DNA of 64,000 nt. Source: Oscillospiraceae bacterium (GTDB lineage: Bacteria > Bacillota > Clostridia > Oscillospirales > CAG-272). The notes below the pieces were generated by a model, which saw only the letters and a program-made list of their open reading frames with translations, was not told the origin of the DNA and did no database searches. The translations under genes and the position numbers were made by a program. Location: NCBI GenBank assembly GCA_015063305.1, contig SVUJ01000004.1, positions 1 through 64,000 on the forward strand, written 5' to 3'. Shown in pieces: positions 16,864 to 53,107 of this stretch (the first letter of the stretch is position 1; each line of letters opens with the position of its first letter).

Positions 16864-17337
16864 TTATTTTAATATCATAGTAAGTCTATCGTTACCTATG
16901 TTAAGCACCTTAACCCCTTTGCTCTGAGCATATTTCATAGCCTTGTATGCTCCGCCCGACTCATTTTGAACATAGGTGATAACAAGGTCGCTGTTTTCTA
17001 TCATCCATTCGTTTCTCTTAGTGATAGCCGCCTTAAAATGCTGTTTGCCCTCTACGGGAATGATGACTTCACCATAATATTTCTCGTAATATTCTATGTC
17101 TTTGACAACGTAAGGAAGTGTAAGTATAAGGGCGCAGGTTTCCTCACCCACGCGGTGTTGAACTCGTTTTATTACCGATGCGACCGAAATATCGAAGTCG
17201 CCGTTTCGTCCCACGTAGAACTCCACGAATTGGTGATTTCTTATAAGCGTGTCAACAATATCTTCAAGTTTTTTCTCTAAATCTCTTATTGAATACAAGG
17301 TTCTGTGACCGAAAAAAGAAACTCTGTAAGGGAACAT
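16864..17337 (-). CDS. SLOG/DUF1273-like Rossmann protein, paralogue 1
   Basis: 'MFPYRVSFFGHRTLY', 'FYVGRNGDFDISVASVIKRVQ', 'RNEWMIENSDLVITYVQNESGGAYKAMKYAQSKGVKVLNIG'. Confidence 0.75.
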   Translation of the reverse strand: MFPYRVSFFGHRTLYSIRDLEKKLEDIVDTLIRNHQFVEFYVGRNGDFDISVASVIKRVQHRVGEETCALILTLPYVVKDIEYYEKYYGEVIIPVEGKQHFKAAITKRNEWMIENSDLVITYVQNESGGAYKAMKYAQSKGVKVLNIGNDRLTMILK

Positions 17338-17407
17338 ATCCATCTCCAAAAATAAAAAAGTGCGCCAACCGAAGCCGACGCACCGAAAAACGCAAACCCC
17401 GATTGTC

Positions 17408-17555
17408 GCCAAACAAATCGAAATAAAATATGCATTATAGCACATATTTAAGTCGTGGAATTTGCATTTTTACCAAATTCGTATAACTTAAATATGCGCA
17501 TAAAAAAGTATAGTATTCCTAAAAATACCTCTATCTTTTATTCGATTTGTTTGGC
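17408..17555. promoter_or_regulatory. 14-bp perfect inverted repeat upstream of the SLOG-like gene (possible operator)
   Basis: GCCAAACAAATCGA at 17408-17421 and TCGATTTGTTTGGC at 17542-17555, with A/T-rich flanks also partly matching; minus-strand TATAAT near 17432. Confidence 0.4.
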
Positions 17556-17654: not shown

Positions 17655-17776
17655 AAAAAGCCTTCTCCTGTGGGAGAAGGGGGACCACGAAGTGGTGGAT
17701 GAGGAGTTAGTTTAAGTTAAGAACACCTCATCCGTCGCCTGACGGCGCCACCTTCTCCCACTGGAGAAGGCTTTTT
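17655..17776 (+). repeat. Intergenic palindromic repeat family A, full-length copy
   Basis: AAAAAGCCTTCTCCTGTGGGAGAAGG...CACCTTCTCCCACTGGAGAAGGCTTTTT. Confidence 0.88.
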
Positions 17777-17780
17777 ATAA

Positions 17781-17912
17781 GGCTCCCTCCGGGAGGGAGC
17801 TGTCGCCGTAGGCGACTGAGGGAGAACGCGTCACAATAAAGTTAAGCAAAACTTAATATTACGCAGGCTCCTTCCACCGCTATGCGGTCCCCCTTCCTCC
17901 CGGAGGAAGGCT
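17781..17912 (+). repeat. Repeat family B, copy 3, joined to repeat A by ATAA
   Basis: GGCTCCCTCCGGGAGGGAGCTGTCGCCGTAGGCGACTGAGGGAGA...CGGAGGAAGGCT. Confidence 0.88.
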
Positions 17913-17967
17913 TATGTAGGGCATAATTTTGCTACCGCGGTGGCGTTTGTTTGTGTTGCTTGTAAAA

Positions 17968-17995
17968 CGGGTCGTCGAGGACGCCGCCCCCTACC
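17968..17995 (-). repeat. Intergenic REP-like element i1 (GTAG head plus palindrome)
   Basis: Minus strand: GGTAGGGGGCGGCGTCCTCGACGACCCG; close to the palindromes inside RAYT2. Confidence 0.75.
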
Positions 17996-18052
17996 AATTA
18001 TAGGGTAATGTTTGTCGTGCCGCGGTGGCGTTTGTTTGTGTTGTTTATAAAA

Positions 18053-18078
18053 CGGGAGGAGCAAGCCCCTCCCCTACC
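18053..18078 (-). repeat. Intergenic REP-like element i2
   Basis: Minus strand: GGTAGGGGAGGGGCTTGCTCCTCCCG. Confidence 0.78.
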
Positions 18079-18170
18079 AAGTTTTTTTATGTATGTAAAT
18101 TTGTTGCGGTGAAATTTTCAAAAAACAATTTATATAAACGACACCTACTTCAGAGCAAGCCCCCGTCTGC

Positions 18171-18196
18171 GGTAGGGGAGGGGCTTGCTCCTCCCG
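18171..18196 (+). repeat. Intergenic REP-like element i3, perfect 26-nt inverted partner of i2 (REPIN-like arrangement)
   Basis: GGTAGGGGAGGGGCTTGCTCCTCCCG, exact reverse complement of 18053-18078. Confidence 0.8.
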
Positions 18197-18306
18197 TTTC
18201 ATAAACATTACAATTCAATTTCAAGGCAACAATAAAAACATTATCTTACATAAAAAAGGGCAGATTTTATATCCGCCCTTTGATCTTTGTTTTACAAATT
18301 ACTATA

Positions 18307-18999
18307 TTACTCGCTGTCCTTTTCTACCGTGTCGGCAAATCTGAAGCCTGCGGTGGTCGCTACGGGCAGGGAGAATACAAGCGCGTGCGCTTCGGTATTT
18401 ATTCCCGCGTTCTGCATTATCGCGCGCATTATGTCCTTCTTCTTGTTCGTGTCGGACACTATAAACACCATTTCCTTTTCCTCGGCAAGGGATATCCCAA
18501 AGAATTTCTCGGCAGCCTTCGCTCCCGTTCCTCTTGCTCTGATGGTCGTTCCGCCTCCCGCTCCCGCAGAACGCGCCGCATCCATTACCATATCGGTAAA
18601 TCCTTTTTCGTATATAGCCACTATAAGCTCATAATCTGAGGTCATATTTTCGCTCTCCTTTTCAATTTCAGTCTGTTCGCCTGTAAAATACTCAAGGGTG
18701 TGAACTCCGCCTATGCTCGAAAGCGGTACTGCCATGGCAACTCCTCTGTCGGGAAGGTCTATCTTCATCTGCGTGGTAAGCCCACGGGTGAGTGAGTTCA
18801 ATGAATTTCCGTCGGTTATCGTAAAGAGCATCGTCTTCTCGGTCCGTTCTATACCGAGAAGGTCAAGGGTCTTGGCGTGTACCGTACCGTTACAGTTTAT
18901 GGCGTATAACACCTCAACCCCTCTGTCGGTATAAAATTTTTCATATTCTTCACTGTCCGAACGTCGGATTATCGTTATAAGAAAATATATATTTTTCAT
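18307..18999 (-). CDS. PII-like regulatory protein with two tandem PII-type modules
   Basis: Two ~95-aa modules beginning 'YFLITIIRRSDSEEYEKFYTDRGVEVLYAINCNGT' and 'YELIVAIYEKGFTDMVMDAARSAGAGGGTTIRARGTG'; next to the DUF1538 gene. Confidence 0.75.
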   Translation of the reverse strand: MKNIYFLITIIRRSDSEEYEKFYTDRGVEVLYAINCNGTVHAKTLDLLGIERTEKTMLFTITDGNSLNSLTRGLTTQMKIDLPDRGVAMAVPLSSIGGVHTLEYFTGEQTEIEKESENMTSDYELIVAIYEKGFTDMVMDAARSAGAGGGTTIRARGTGAKAAEKFFGISLAEEKEMVFIVSDTNKKKDIMRAIMQNAGINTEAHALVFSLPVATTAGFRFADTVEKDSE

Positions 19000-19011: not shown

Positions 19012-20580
19012 TTACAAATCGATAATGTCTTCATCGTCGAGGGAGATCTTTGCCGTCTCGGGGATATCAATAATAGTTTCTTCACTCTGAGCCGTAGCAG
19101 CTTCTGCCGAAACGCTTCTGTTATGCTTGATCTTATATATAAGACCGAGTATCTGAATGGTTATCAGGGGAGTCATAGCTACCATCGCCACAACTCCAAA
19201 GGCATCCTCAACGATATTGCCGCCAAGGGCGTCGCACGCGCCGACCGCAAAGGGGAGCAGGAAGGTCGCCGTCATAGGACCTGAGGCAACTCCGCCCGAG
19301 TCGAACGCTATAGAGGTGAATATATCGGGAACAAAGAATGTAAGTACAAGGGCTATCGCGTATCCGGGGATCAAAAACCACATTATAGATATTCCCGTGA
19401 GAACTCGTATCATAGCGAGCCCCACCGAAACGGCAACGCCGATAGAGAGTGACGTGCCGAGGAGCTTTCCGGGAATAGTCCCCGAAGTCGTTTCCTCGAC
19501 CTGCTTTGTAAGCACGTGAACCGCGGGCTCAGCCGACACGATAAAGTATCCTATTATCATTCCGAGGGGAATTATTAGAAAATCAAACTTTGACTCTCCC
19601 AAGGTCTGACCTATATAGTTACCTACAGACATAAATCCAACGTTTACGCCTGTGAGGAAGAGGACAAGACCGAGATATGTATAAACAAGACCTATAAGTA
19701 TTTTTATCAGGTTGTGCGTATTTATCCTTCCGCAGATAAACTGAAATACCAAGAAGAATACCGCCAAGGGGGCAACGGCTATAGCTACCTCTCCAAGATA
19801 GTGGGGAACAGATATAAGGAACATTCCTATTATGTCGCGCGAGGTGTCGACAAGCGGAAGCGAATAGTCGGTATACGCTTCGGCATCTACTCCGTAGACT
19901 AGAGAAAGTATCATAACGGCTATGATAGGGCCTATCGAGCAGAGGGCTACAAGACCGAAGCTGTCGTTCTCCGCAGAGTCGTCCGAACGTATTGCGGCAA
20001 CGCCCACGCCAAGCGCCATTATAAAGGGAACTGTCATAGGGCCTGTGGTAACTCCGCCCGAGTCGAACGCGAGCGAGAGGAAGTTTTCGGGAATCCATAT
20101 ACAAAGTATAAACAGTACCGTATAGAAGAACAAAAGCAGGTATTTGAGCTTTATTCTGAAGAGTATTCTGAGCATTGACACTACCAAGAAAAGTCCCACG
20201 CCAACGCCAACAGAAAGTATAAGTATAAAGTTGGGGATAGAGGATATCTGGTTGGCAAGAACCTGAAGGTCGGGCTCGGAGACCGTTATCAGTACTCCAA
20301 CGAAGAATGACACGAAGACTATGAGTGAGAGCTTGCGGGACTTTGTCATCTGAGTACCCACGTACTCTCCGATAGGTGTCATTGAGGTCTCAGCTCCCAT
20401 CGTAAACAGCGCCATTCCGAAGATTATCATCACCGCGCCGATTATAAACGCCAGAAGCATAGAGGCCGGAACGGGGATAAAGGTTGCCAACAAAAATAGC
20501 ACTATAAGTGTTACGGGAAGAACTGAGGACAGCGATTCCTTCAGCTTTTCCGAAAGCACCGTCTTATTTATTATATTCAA
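19012..20580 (-). CDS. DUF1538-type polytopic membrane protein (putative transporter), internally duplicated
   Basis: Many TM segments; 'LAFDSGGVTTGPMTVPFI' and 'IAFDSGGVASGPMTATFL'; 'TVSEPDLQVLANQI' and 'VSAEPAVHVLTKQV'. Confidence 0.82.
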   Translation of the reverse strand: MNIINKTVLSEKLKESLSSVLPVTLIVLFLLATFIPVPASMLLAFIIGAVMIIFGMALFTMGAETSMTPIGEYVGTQMTKSRKLSLIVFVSFFVGVLITVSEPDLQVLANQISSIPNFILILSVGVGVGLFLVVSMLRILFRIKLKYLLLFFYTVLFILCIWIPENFLSLAFDSGGVTTGPMTVPFIMALGVGVAAIRSDDSAENDSFGLVALCSIGPIIAVMILSLVYGVDAEAYTDYSLPLVDTSRDIIGMFLISVPHYLGEVAIAVAPLAVFFLVFQFICGRINTHNLIKILIGLVYTYLGLVLFLTGVNVGFMSVGNYIGQTLGESKFDFLIIPLGMIIGYFIVSAEPAVHVLTKQVEETTSGTIPGKLLGTSLSIGVAVSVGLAMIRVLTGISIMWFLIPGYAIALVLTFFVPDIFTSIAFDSGGVASGPMTATFLLPFAVGACDALGGNIVEDAFGVVAMVAMTPLITIQILGLIYKIKHNRSVSAEAATAQSEETIIDIPETAKISLDDEDIIDL

Positions 20581-30922: not shown

Positions 30923-30961
30923 AGAGCAGATTATCTATTTTAAGAGTGAAATTTATAAATT

Positions 30962-31001
30962 TCGGCAGAGGGTTGTACCTCTGCCGATTTTGTGATATAA
31001 T
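30962..31001 (+). promoter_or_regulatory. RAYT1 leader: hairpin with T run overlapping a putative promoter (-35 TTGTAC in the loop region, -10 TATAAT)
   Basis: TCGGCAGAGG/CCTCTGCCGA stem at 30962-30987; TTGTAC 30973-30978 and TATAAT 30996-31001, 17-bp spacer. Confidence 0.6.
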
Positions 31002-31017
31002 ATTGTGGGTGATGAAA

Positions 31018-31545
31018 ATGGATAAAACAAAAGGGTTGCCGGATAGAAAACATTTGCGGTTGCAGAATTTTGATTATGATACGCCGGGCGCATATTTTAT
31101 TACAATATGCACACATAACAGAAAATGTACGTTATCACATATCGTAGGGGCGATTCACGAATCGTCCGAAATTAAATTGACGGAATATGGGATGATTGTT
31201 GATGAAATCATAAATGATATTTCTAAGCGGTTTAAGATAGAGGTGGATAGATATGTTATAATGCCCAACCATATTCACCTTATTATCGTAATTACAGATA
31301 ACGAAGAACTACGGACGATTCGTGAATCGCCCCTACGAGGTCGTTCTATAATCTCAAAAATGATAGGATACGTTAAAATGAATGCATCTAAAGAAATTCA
31401 TAGAAAATTTGGCAATACTATTGTTTGGCAACGAGGATTTCACGATCACATCATACGCGATAAAGACGATTATGAAAAAATTTCCAAATATATTTATGAG
31501 AATCCAACCAAATGGCAATACGATTGTTTTTATACAGAAGAATAA
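31018..31545 (+). CDS. REP-associated tyrosine transposase (RAYT, Y1_Tnp family), copy 1
   Basis: 'LPDRKHLRLQNFDYDTPGAYFITICTHNRK', HUH-like 'MPNHIHLIIV', 'HDHIIRDKDDYEKISKYIYENPTKW'. Confidence 0.93.
   Translation: MDKTKGLPDRKHLRLQNFDYDTPGAYFITICTHNRKCTLSHIVGAIHESSEIKLTEYGMIVDEIINDISKRFKIEVDRYVIMPNHIHLIIVITDNEELRTIRESPLRGRSIISKMIGYVKMNASKEIHRKFGNTIVWQRGFHDHIIRDKDDYEKISKYIYENPTKWQYDCFYTEE
31142..31338. repeat. 27-nt perfect inverted repeat of REP-like palindromes inside RAYT1
   Basis: TCGTAGGGGCGATTCACGAATCGTCCG (31142-31168) and its exact reverse complement (31312-31338). Confidence 0.95.
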
Positions 31546-51441: not shown

Positions 51442-51487
51442 TAGACGGGTGGAAAGAACCCCCGACAGAGATAAAATATTACAAAAA

Positions 51488-51528
51488 TCGACAGAGGTAT
51501 TGTTCCTCTGTCGATTTTGTGTTATAAT
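51488..51528 (+). promoter_or_regulatory. RAYT2 leader: hairpin with T run overlapping a putative promoter
   Basis: TCGACAGAGG/CCTCTGTCGA stem; TTGTTC 51500-51505 and TATAAT 51523-51528, 17-bp spacer; same layout as RAYT1. Confidence 0.6.
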
Positions 51529-51544
51529 GAGTTTGGTGATGAAA

Positions 51545-52060
51545 ATGGATAAGAAAAAAGAATTGCCGAACAGAAAAGATATCCGATTAAAGCAGTACGA
51601 TTATAGCTCCGCAGGGGCGTATTTTGTTACGATATGTACCGAAAGCAGACGTCAAATTTTATCTTACATTGTAGGGGGCGACGTCCTCGACGCCCCGAAG
51701 AACGTAGAATTATCGCCATACGGAGAAATAGCAGAGAAATATATAAATCAATTAAATGATTTTTATGATGATGTCAAGATTGACAGATATGTAATTATGC
51801 CGAACCATATTCATATTATGTTGTTTGTGTCGGGGAACGGGGCGTCGAGGACGTCGCCCCCTACAAGGCAACACTCGGCGGTGTCGCAATTTGTTTCTAC
51901 GTTTAAAAGGTTTTGTAATAAAGAGTACGGAAAGAACATTTGGCAACGAAATTTTTACGACCACATTATCCGAAACCGAGAAGATTATGAAGAACATATA
52001 AAATACATTTACGAAAATCCAATGAAGTGGTACTATGACGAACTATACTCAGAAGAATAA
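51545..52060 (+). CDS. REP-associated tyrosine transposase (RAYT, Y1_Tnp family), copy 2
   Basis: 'LPNRKDIRLKQYDYSSAGAYFVTICTESRR', 'MPNHIHIMLF', 'YDHIIRNREDYEEHIKYIYENPMKW'. Confidence 0.93.
   Translation: MDKKKELPNRKDIRLKQYDYSSAGAYFVTICTESRRQILSYIVGGDVLDAPKNVELSPYGEIAEKYINQLNDFYDDVKIDRYVIMPNHIHIMLFVSGNGASRTSPPTRQHSAVSQFVSTFKRFCNKEYGKNIWQRNFYDHIIRNREDYEEHIKYIYENPMKWYYDELYSEE
51669..51866. repeat. 29-nt perfect inverted repeat of REP-like palindromes inside RAYT2
   Basis: TTGTAGGGGGCGACGTCCTCGACGCCCCG (51669-51697) and its exact reverse complement (51838-51866). Confidence 0.95.
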
Positions 52061-52862: not shown

Positions 52863-52986
52863 ATGATACATAAAGATCTCGCCGATGTGTTATTAGCACA
52901 AAACTCGCAAAATAAAACGTTCCCACAAACCAAGTCAAAACGGTTTGTGGGAACTTTATTTTATAGTTAAAGAAACGGATCATGCC

Positions 52987-53107
52987 AAGCCTTCTCCAGT
53001 GGGAGAAGGTGGCAGCCGAAGGCTGACGGATGAGGTGTCCTTAATGCAAGGTTACTCCTCATCCACCGCTGATGCGGTCCCCCTTCTCCCACAGGAGAAG
53101 GCTTTTT
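52987..53107 (-). repeat. Repeat family A, second full-length copy, opposite orientation to 17655-17776
   Basis: AAGCCTTCTCCAGTGGGAGAAGGTGGCAGCCGAAGGCTGACGGATGAGG...CCTTCTCCCACAGGAGAAGGCTTTTT. Confidence 0.87.

Follow-up and report, generated by a model that had tools for sequence, protein, structure and literature searches.

GTAG palindromes between genes and inside RAYT genes of an Oscillospiraceae genome

The 64,000-nt stretch of Oscillospiraceae bacterium (CAG-272) DNA analysed here (the window; GCA_015063305.1, SVUJ01000004.1, positions 1-64,000, forward strand) holds palindromes with a GTAG foot both in an intergenic region, where we call them i1 to i3 (17968-18196), and within RAYT genes. 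What are the intergenic elements, and how are they related to the palindromes inside the genes? In the published model, RAYTs belong to the single-strand HUH enzymes; they recognise hairpins with a GTAG foot, cut at a CT close by and disperse REPINs in trans (PMC8266576, PMC6006769, PMC8049555). A REPIN here would be a non-autonomous single-strand mobile element consisting of a pair of inverted GTAG hairpins, with RAYT (TnpA_REP) HUH-tyrosine transposases acting in trans to spread it. We consider it likely that i1 to i3 are copies and remnants of REPINs spread by RAYTs; the RAYT genes themselves carry an internal REP pair. The published model is consistent with i1 to i3; the matched internal pair is less expected from it. 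Genome-wide counts were obtained by pattern, DNA and profile searches and from individual stretches of the host assembly (1.58 Mb, 22 contigs, completeness 94.6%).

Three intergenic palindromes and their genomic families

The elements i1 to i3 lie between the ORFs at 16864-17445 and 18307-18999 and, like the internal RAYT arms, are palindromes of about 20-40 nt with a GTAG foot and hairpin folds. Sequence comparison bore out the original observation that i2 (18053-18078, minus strand; CGGGAGGAGCAAGCCCCTCCCCTACC; CTAC inward) and i3 (18171-18196, plus strand; GGTAGGGGAGGGGCTTGCTCCTCCCG; GTAG inward) are exact 26-nt reverse complements with 92 nt between them, and that GTAG or CTAC stands at the foot of all three elements. 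The two form the left and right REPs of a family-B REPIN, the spacer of which (18079-18170) is partly conserved in further B copies. A lone GTAG REP without a partner, i1 (17968-17995, minus strand; GGTAGGGGGCGGCGTCCTCGACGACCCG on that strand) has the near-match to the RAYT2 arm that was first noted, GTCGAGGACGCCGCCCCCTAC (17974-17994) and GTCGAGGACGTCGCCCCCTAC (51844-51864) being identical at 20 of 21 positions, for which the chance expectation in the window is about 2e-6. Over 28 nt, i1 shows two differences to family A2 and three to the RAYT2 arm and family A1, and for this reason it is a half-element between A1 and A2 rather than a RAYT2-type copy. It is probably a decayed lone REP; the expected place of its missing right half is occupied by the B-type REPIN i2/i3. 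A 37-nt direct repeat stands just outside i1 (17935-17971) and, with a 95% match, just outside i2 (18020-18056), and tracts resembling it border other REPs of the genome. Other repeat families, unrelated to GTAG REPs, were seen at 17730-17915 and 52983-53105 (GGCTCCCTCCGGGAGGGAGCTGTCGCCGTAGGCGACTGAGGGAG; CCTTCTCCCACTGGAGAAGG). The P-II-like protein encoded at 18307-18999 adjoins a UmpA/UmpB-like antiporter subunit (19012-20580; under the NCBIfam cut-off).

These palindromes are repeated across the genome. A DNA search with the whole i1-i3 region returned 81 matches, and the 20-nt core of i2/i3 (family B) occurs in 22 copies, 19 of them exact, with seven inverted pairs; its reversed control has no copy genome-wide. 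Singleton status is thereby refuted. Two more families, A1 (GTAGGGGGCGACGTCCTCGACGCCCC) and A2 (GGTAGGGGTCGGCGCCCTCGACGACCC), were read from the 81 matches, with about 10 and 8 inverted pairs respectively and partly conserved spacers; pairs of A1/A2 (about 18) and of B (seven) repeat as units with regular spacing. At least six families are present, in line with the prediction that several REP subfamilies coexist in one genome. Family C (GTAGGGACAGGCGTCCTCGACTGTCC) is represented by 10 exact copies, at 10 places; RAYTs with C arms occur in relatives and not among the RAYTs found in this assembly. An Rfam search of the i1-i3 region gave sub-threshold matches only.

Could i1 to i3 instead be ordinary intrinsic terminators of the adjoining genes? 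The minus-strand hairpin of i2, with GTTTTATAAA after it, does receive a terminator-like score. However, T-rich tails are not conserved across the family-B copies, the adjacent minus-strand gene has a separate terminator-like hairpin at 18255-18281, and 22 near-identical GTAG-tagged copies in inverted pairs, with a presence that tracks RAYT genes, are not what terminators would give. The terminator explanation is rejected for these elements on these grounds, and we regard what is left of its probability as negligible.

RAYT genes of this genome and their REPs

A profile search of the genome recovered three full RAYTs and one truncated copy. RAYT1 (C10:31018-31545, plus strand; to 31542 in the profile search) contains an arm GTAGGGGCGATTCACGAATCGTCCG at 31144-31168 and its exact inverted copy on the minus strand at 31312-31336. 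RAYT2 (C10:51545-52060, plus strand, stop codon included; to 52057 in the profile search), a TnpA_REP-like HUH transposase, carries GTAGGGGGCGACGTCCTCGACGCCCCG at 51671-51697 and the exact inverted copy at 51838-51864 (minus strand), both in frame. RAYT3 lies at C7:90495-91007. Each of the three has two in-frame REP arms, exact reverse complements of each other, on either side of NHIH and with GTAG outward. In contrast, the inward orientation prevails among the A1 and B pairs of this genome. RAYT2 and RAYT3 are 69% identical as proteins, and their arm changes are the same in both arms, including a compensated stem change from G-C to T-A.

Alongside NHIH, these RAYTs have the catalytic motif YIYENP, at a HuH-Y distance of about 64 aa. 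Against the NCBIfam model REP_Tyr_transpos (NF047646; cut-off 80), RAYT3 scores just above the threshold (80.8 bits) and RAYT1 and RAYT2 just under it (73.0 and 71.9). The closest solved structure is 4er8, TnpA_REP with a REP hairpin, both by profile (6e-10) and by predicted fold (3.3e-8). The AlphaFold2 model of RAYT2 has a mean pLDDT of 79; away from the chain ends, confidence drops below 50 in just two stretches, residues 44-51 and 101-106, and these are the arm loops.

Just upstream of the RAYT genes (window 51479-51530 and 30950-31012; L076) stands a hairpin, for example TCGGCAGAGG...CCTCTGCCGA, and after it come a T-rich run and TATAAT, an arrangement that resembles a terminator-plus-promoter module shielding the RAYT from read-through. 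Hairpins of 9 bp or more that end in a T-rich tail are present just upstream of 37 of 155 RAYTs, compared with one case in a stretch lying 400 nt farther upstream, taken as control.

The palindromes within the RAYT genes had been proposed to be linked to free-standing elements, and exact copies of the arms do occur outside the genes: 13 for RAYT1, 25 for RAYT2, whose arms are of A1 type, and 8 for RAYT3. The further expectation that each RAYT's arms match one REP cluster held for RAYT1 to RAYT3, each of which matches one genomic family. The elements i2 and i3 match the RAYTs of relatives only. Neither for B-type arms (19 exact copies of this REP) nor for C-type arms (10 exact) was a RAYT found in this 94.6%-complete assembly. 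The origin of i2/i3 is probably a RAYT with B-type arms that has been lost or is encoded in the unassembled portion of the genome. The truncated RAYT copy (C21:60387-60791; L078) is a mixed-arm intermediate, with a first arm of A1 type and a second of A2 type. As for the intergenic spacers, derivation from the HUH segment of a RAYT was considered and set aside; no similarity to RAYTs was noticed in them by eye.

The RAYT1 arms carry the variant ATCGTCCG (GTCC), while other genomes usually have ATCGCCCG. This variant is found in 13 of the 23 copies outside RAYT1 in this genome, as against 3 of about 130 among the copies listed from other genomes (Fisher p = 3e-10 to 3e-9 when the comparison set is taken as 100 to 125 copies, the count being approximate and limited to listed copies). 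For loci of up to 20 kb, the density of exact arms in a RAYT's own locus is about 20 times that in the loci of other genomes. Across genomes, the association between A1 REPs and A1-armed RAYTs is weak (p = 0.045), and several genomes have A1-armed RAYTs yet no other exact A1 copy. Strict one-to-one cognacy of RAYTs and REPs was therefore not upheld for A1. Genome-wide RAYT/REP cognacy is incomplete, because families B and C are without a matching RAYT in this assembly and the A1 association is weak. The relative G159 (L088, L193) has 56 exact A1 copies, many in outward pairs, and its RAYT matches contain stop codons, which amounts to a large REP population beside decayed RAYTs.

The presence of REPs in a genome follows that of RAYTs. 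At the threshold used, 100 of the 198 genomes of the family contain a RAYT. Genomes with REPs are RAYT-positive in 17/17 cases for family A1, 40/43 for B, 43/43 for C and 31/34 for D; together, 131 of 137 genome-by-family REP occurrences fall in RAYT-positive genomes (Fisher p between 4e-6 and 6e-16 per family). We are highly confident that the REPINs here are tied to RAYTs. Mobilisation by the RAYT would take the form of binding, nicking and copying these REPs, in the manner seen in vitro with TnpA_REP of E. coli.

The internal pair among related RAYTs

Relatives were collected as 157 RAYT genes with HUH, chosen by similarity to the RAYTs of the window from genome searches and a GTDB genome scan; they come mostly from uncultured gut Clostridia and Oscillospiraceae, with Christensenella intestinihominis and Chakrabartyella piscis in addition. 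An inverted pair flanking the HUH with a score of at least 15 is present in 146/157 of them, and in 145/156 after removal of near-identical genes. Shuffled sequences reach a score of 12 at most, and arms re-paired across genes reach 15 in 11% of cases. GTAG points outward in 141 of the 145 paired non-redundant genes and is in frame 0 in 142/143, at a median of 43 codons before the HUH and with a median span of 194 nt. Arms occupy two fixed sites, match within a gene and differ between genes: identity is 96% within a gene and 90% to the same arm of the nearest relative, for a core protein identity of 72%. On a FastTree phylogeny built without the arms, the arm family switches at least 16 times. 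Both arms belong to one cluster in 142/142 genes of the tree, a figure that arises partly by construction since genes were picked for matching arms (the unconditioned value is 145/156). In a phylum-wide sample, the internal pair is absent from most RAYTs and present in L268; the REP pairs of L265, L271 and L273 appear outside the gene. The internal pair is probably a derived state, since most RAYTs of that sample are without it.

One way to account for the arms is that they are conserved for the protein, with the VG...P and ...PT loops as functional motifs and the DNA palindrome as incidental. In its favour, V43, G44 and P106 hardly vary and GTAG keeps one reading frame; yet GTAGGG and its complement, read in this frame, yield exactly these residues. 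Elsewhere in the arm loops variability is higher, at 2.10 bits, than in the protein beyond the arms, at 1.78 bits, and the arm DNA, so nearly identical within a gene, recurs outside coding RAYT genes. We consider a protein motif very unlikely. Arm-encoded peptides are of 79 kinds in 143 genes, and this diversity, together with the position of the arm loops as the lowest-confidence parts of the model, points to a constraint on the arm DNA rather than on the arm peptide.

The internal REPs could also be passive, having inserted into tolerant RAYT loops without any role and remaining identical only through template switching during replication. In-frame REPs are known in many unrelated genes (PMC3733652), the same proposal has been made for the loops of subclass 2.4 (PMC6006769), and the arm loops are poorly ordered in the model and variable in peptide. 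Passive insertion would nevertheless have to explain a pair that is nearly universal in the clade, with two fixed sites, outward orientation and a constant frame, and an arm sequence that tracks the REP families of its own genome. We see it as a real possibility that falls somewhat short of probable.

The reading that we prefer is that the internal pair would be the enzyme's own substrate, kept inside its gene. One arm lies between strand 1 and the first helix and the other just past the HUH strand, and the pair is translated as two tolerated loops. Template switching or gene conversion between the inverted copies may keep the arms identical, as may an exchange with REPINs of the genome. The pair might persist since the RAYT acts on it, as a cis target, as a template for new REPINs or as a self-regulatory site, although any particular role of this kind is advanced only tentatively. 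Somewhat less likely is the stronger version, in which the pair is a functional record of specificity, both arms switch together upon a change in the enzyme's REP specificity, and the gene, as template or cis target, seeds the REPIN family of its genome and keeps it uniform.

Comparison with known REP systems and meaning

REPs within tnpA_REP genes and REP/RAYT cognacy were previously known. In subclass 2.4, tnpA_REP genes contain in-frame REPs, of which most lie between HuH and Y (Quentin et al., 2018; PMC6006769). The RAYTs described here resemble that subclass in their in-frame REPs in peripheral loops, the GTAG tag and the class 2 Y---NP motif. They differ in that the arms stand on both sides of the HUH in nearly all genes, whereas the insertions of subclass 2.4 are generally between HuH and Y and are accompanied by REPs flanking the gene. 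Own-type REPs near the gene are uncommon here (21/143 within 600 nt outside it), so that the flanking inverted REPs of the Nunvar definition do not characterise these genes. In a further difference from subclass 2.4, the arms of individual RAYTs correspond to individual, exact REP families of the genome, and the HuH-Y distance is shorter than the median of 88 aa given for that subclass (PMC6006769). In the parts of the RAYT/REP literature available to us, including PMC6006769, we found no statement of a matched pair around the HUH, of which an earlier mention is possible; exact cognacy of internal arms for each RAYT was likewise not found in this limited coverage.

As with the REPINs and RAYTs of Pseudomonas (Bertels and Rainey, 2011, PMC3116915; PMC8049555), the elements consist of two inverted REPs with a short spacer, are multi-copy with several families per genome, and are restricted to RAYT-bearing genomes. 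In contrast to these, copy numbers are lower (tens), the hosts are gut Clostridia and the RAYT gene itself houses the cognate REP pair. In REPtrons (Nunvar et al., 2010; PMC2817692), too, a RAYT occurs together with two inverted REPs from the family that belongs to it, located at the gene ends rather than inside the gene around the HUH codons. The accessible part of the survey of the GTAG REP superfamily (Di Nocera et al., 2013; PMC3733652) describes the same GTAG foot, 20-40 nt palindromes, dimers and some in-frame copies, and records GTAG repeats from Proteobacteria, Cyanobacteria, Chloroflexi and other groups; that part contains no report that we noted of such repeats in Clostridia or inside RAYT genes. 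Rickettsia palindromic elements, as covered there, are likewise in-frame palindromic repeats tolerated in proteins, but they have a CGTC tag and no known dedicated transposase (PMC3733652), while the host gene here is the presumed cognate transposase.

The literature found offers no settled account of what keeps a RAYT matched to its REP family, or of the origin of new REP families. The clade described here offers many natural arm switches as well as mixed-arm intermediates. The variable VG... and ...PT peptides of its RAYTs are probably REP DNA read in frame and not protein motifs. With a REP in the reading frame of most of its RAYTs, the clade allows a prediction of each enzyme's substrate that can be read from sequence, and the internal pair may record which repeat goes with each RAYT.
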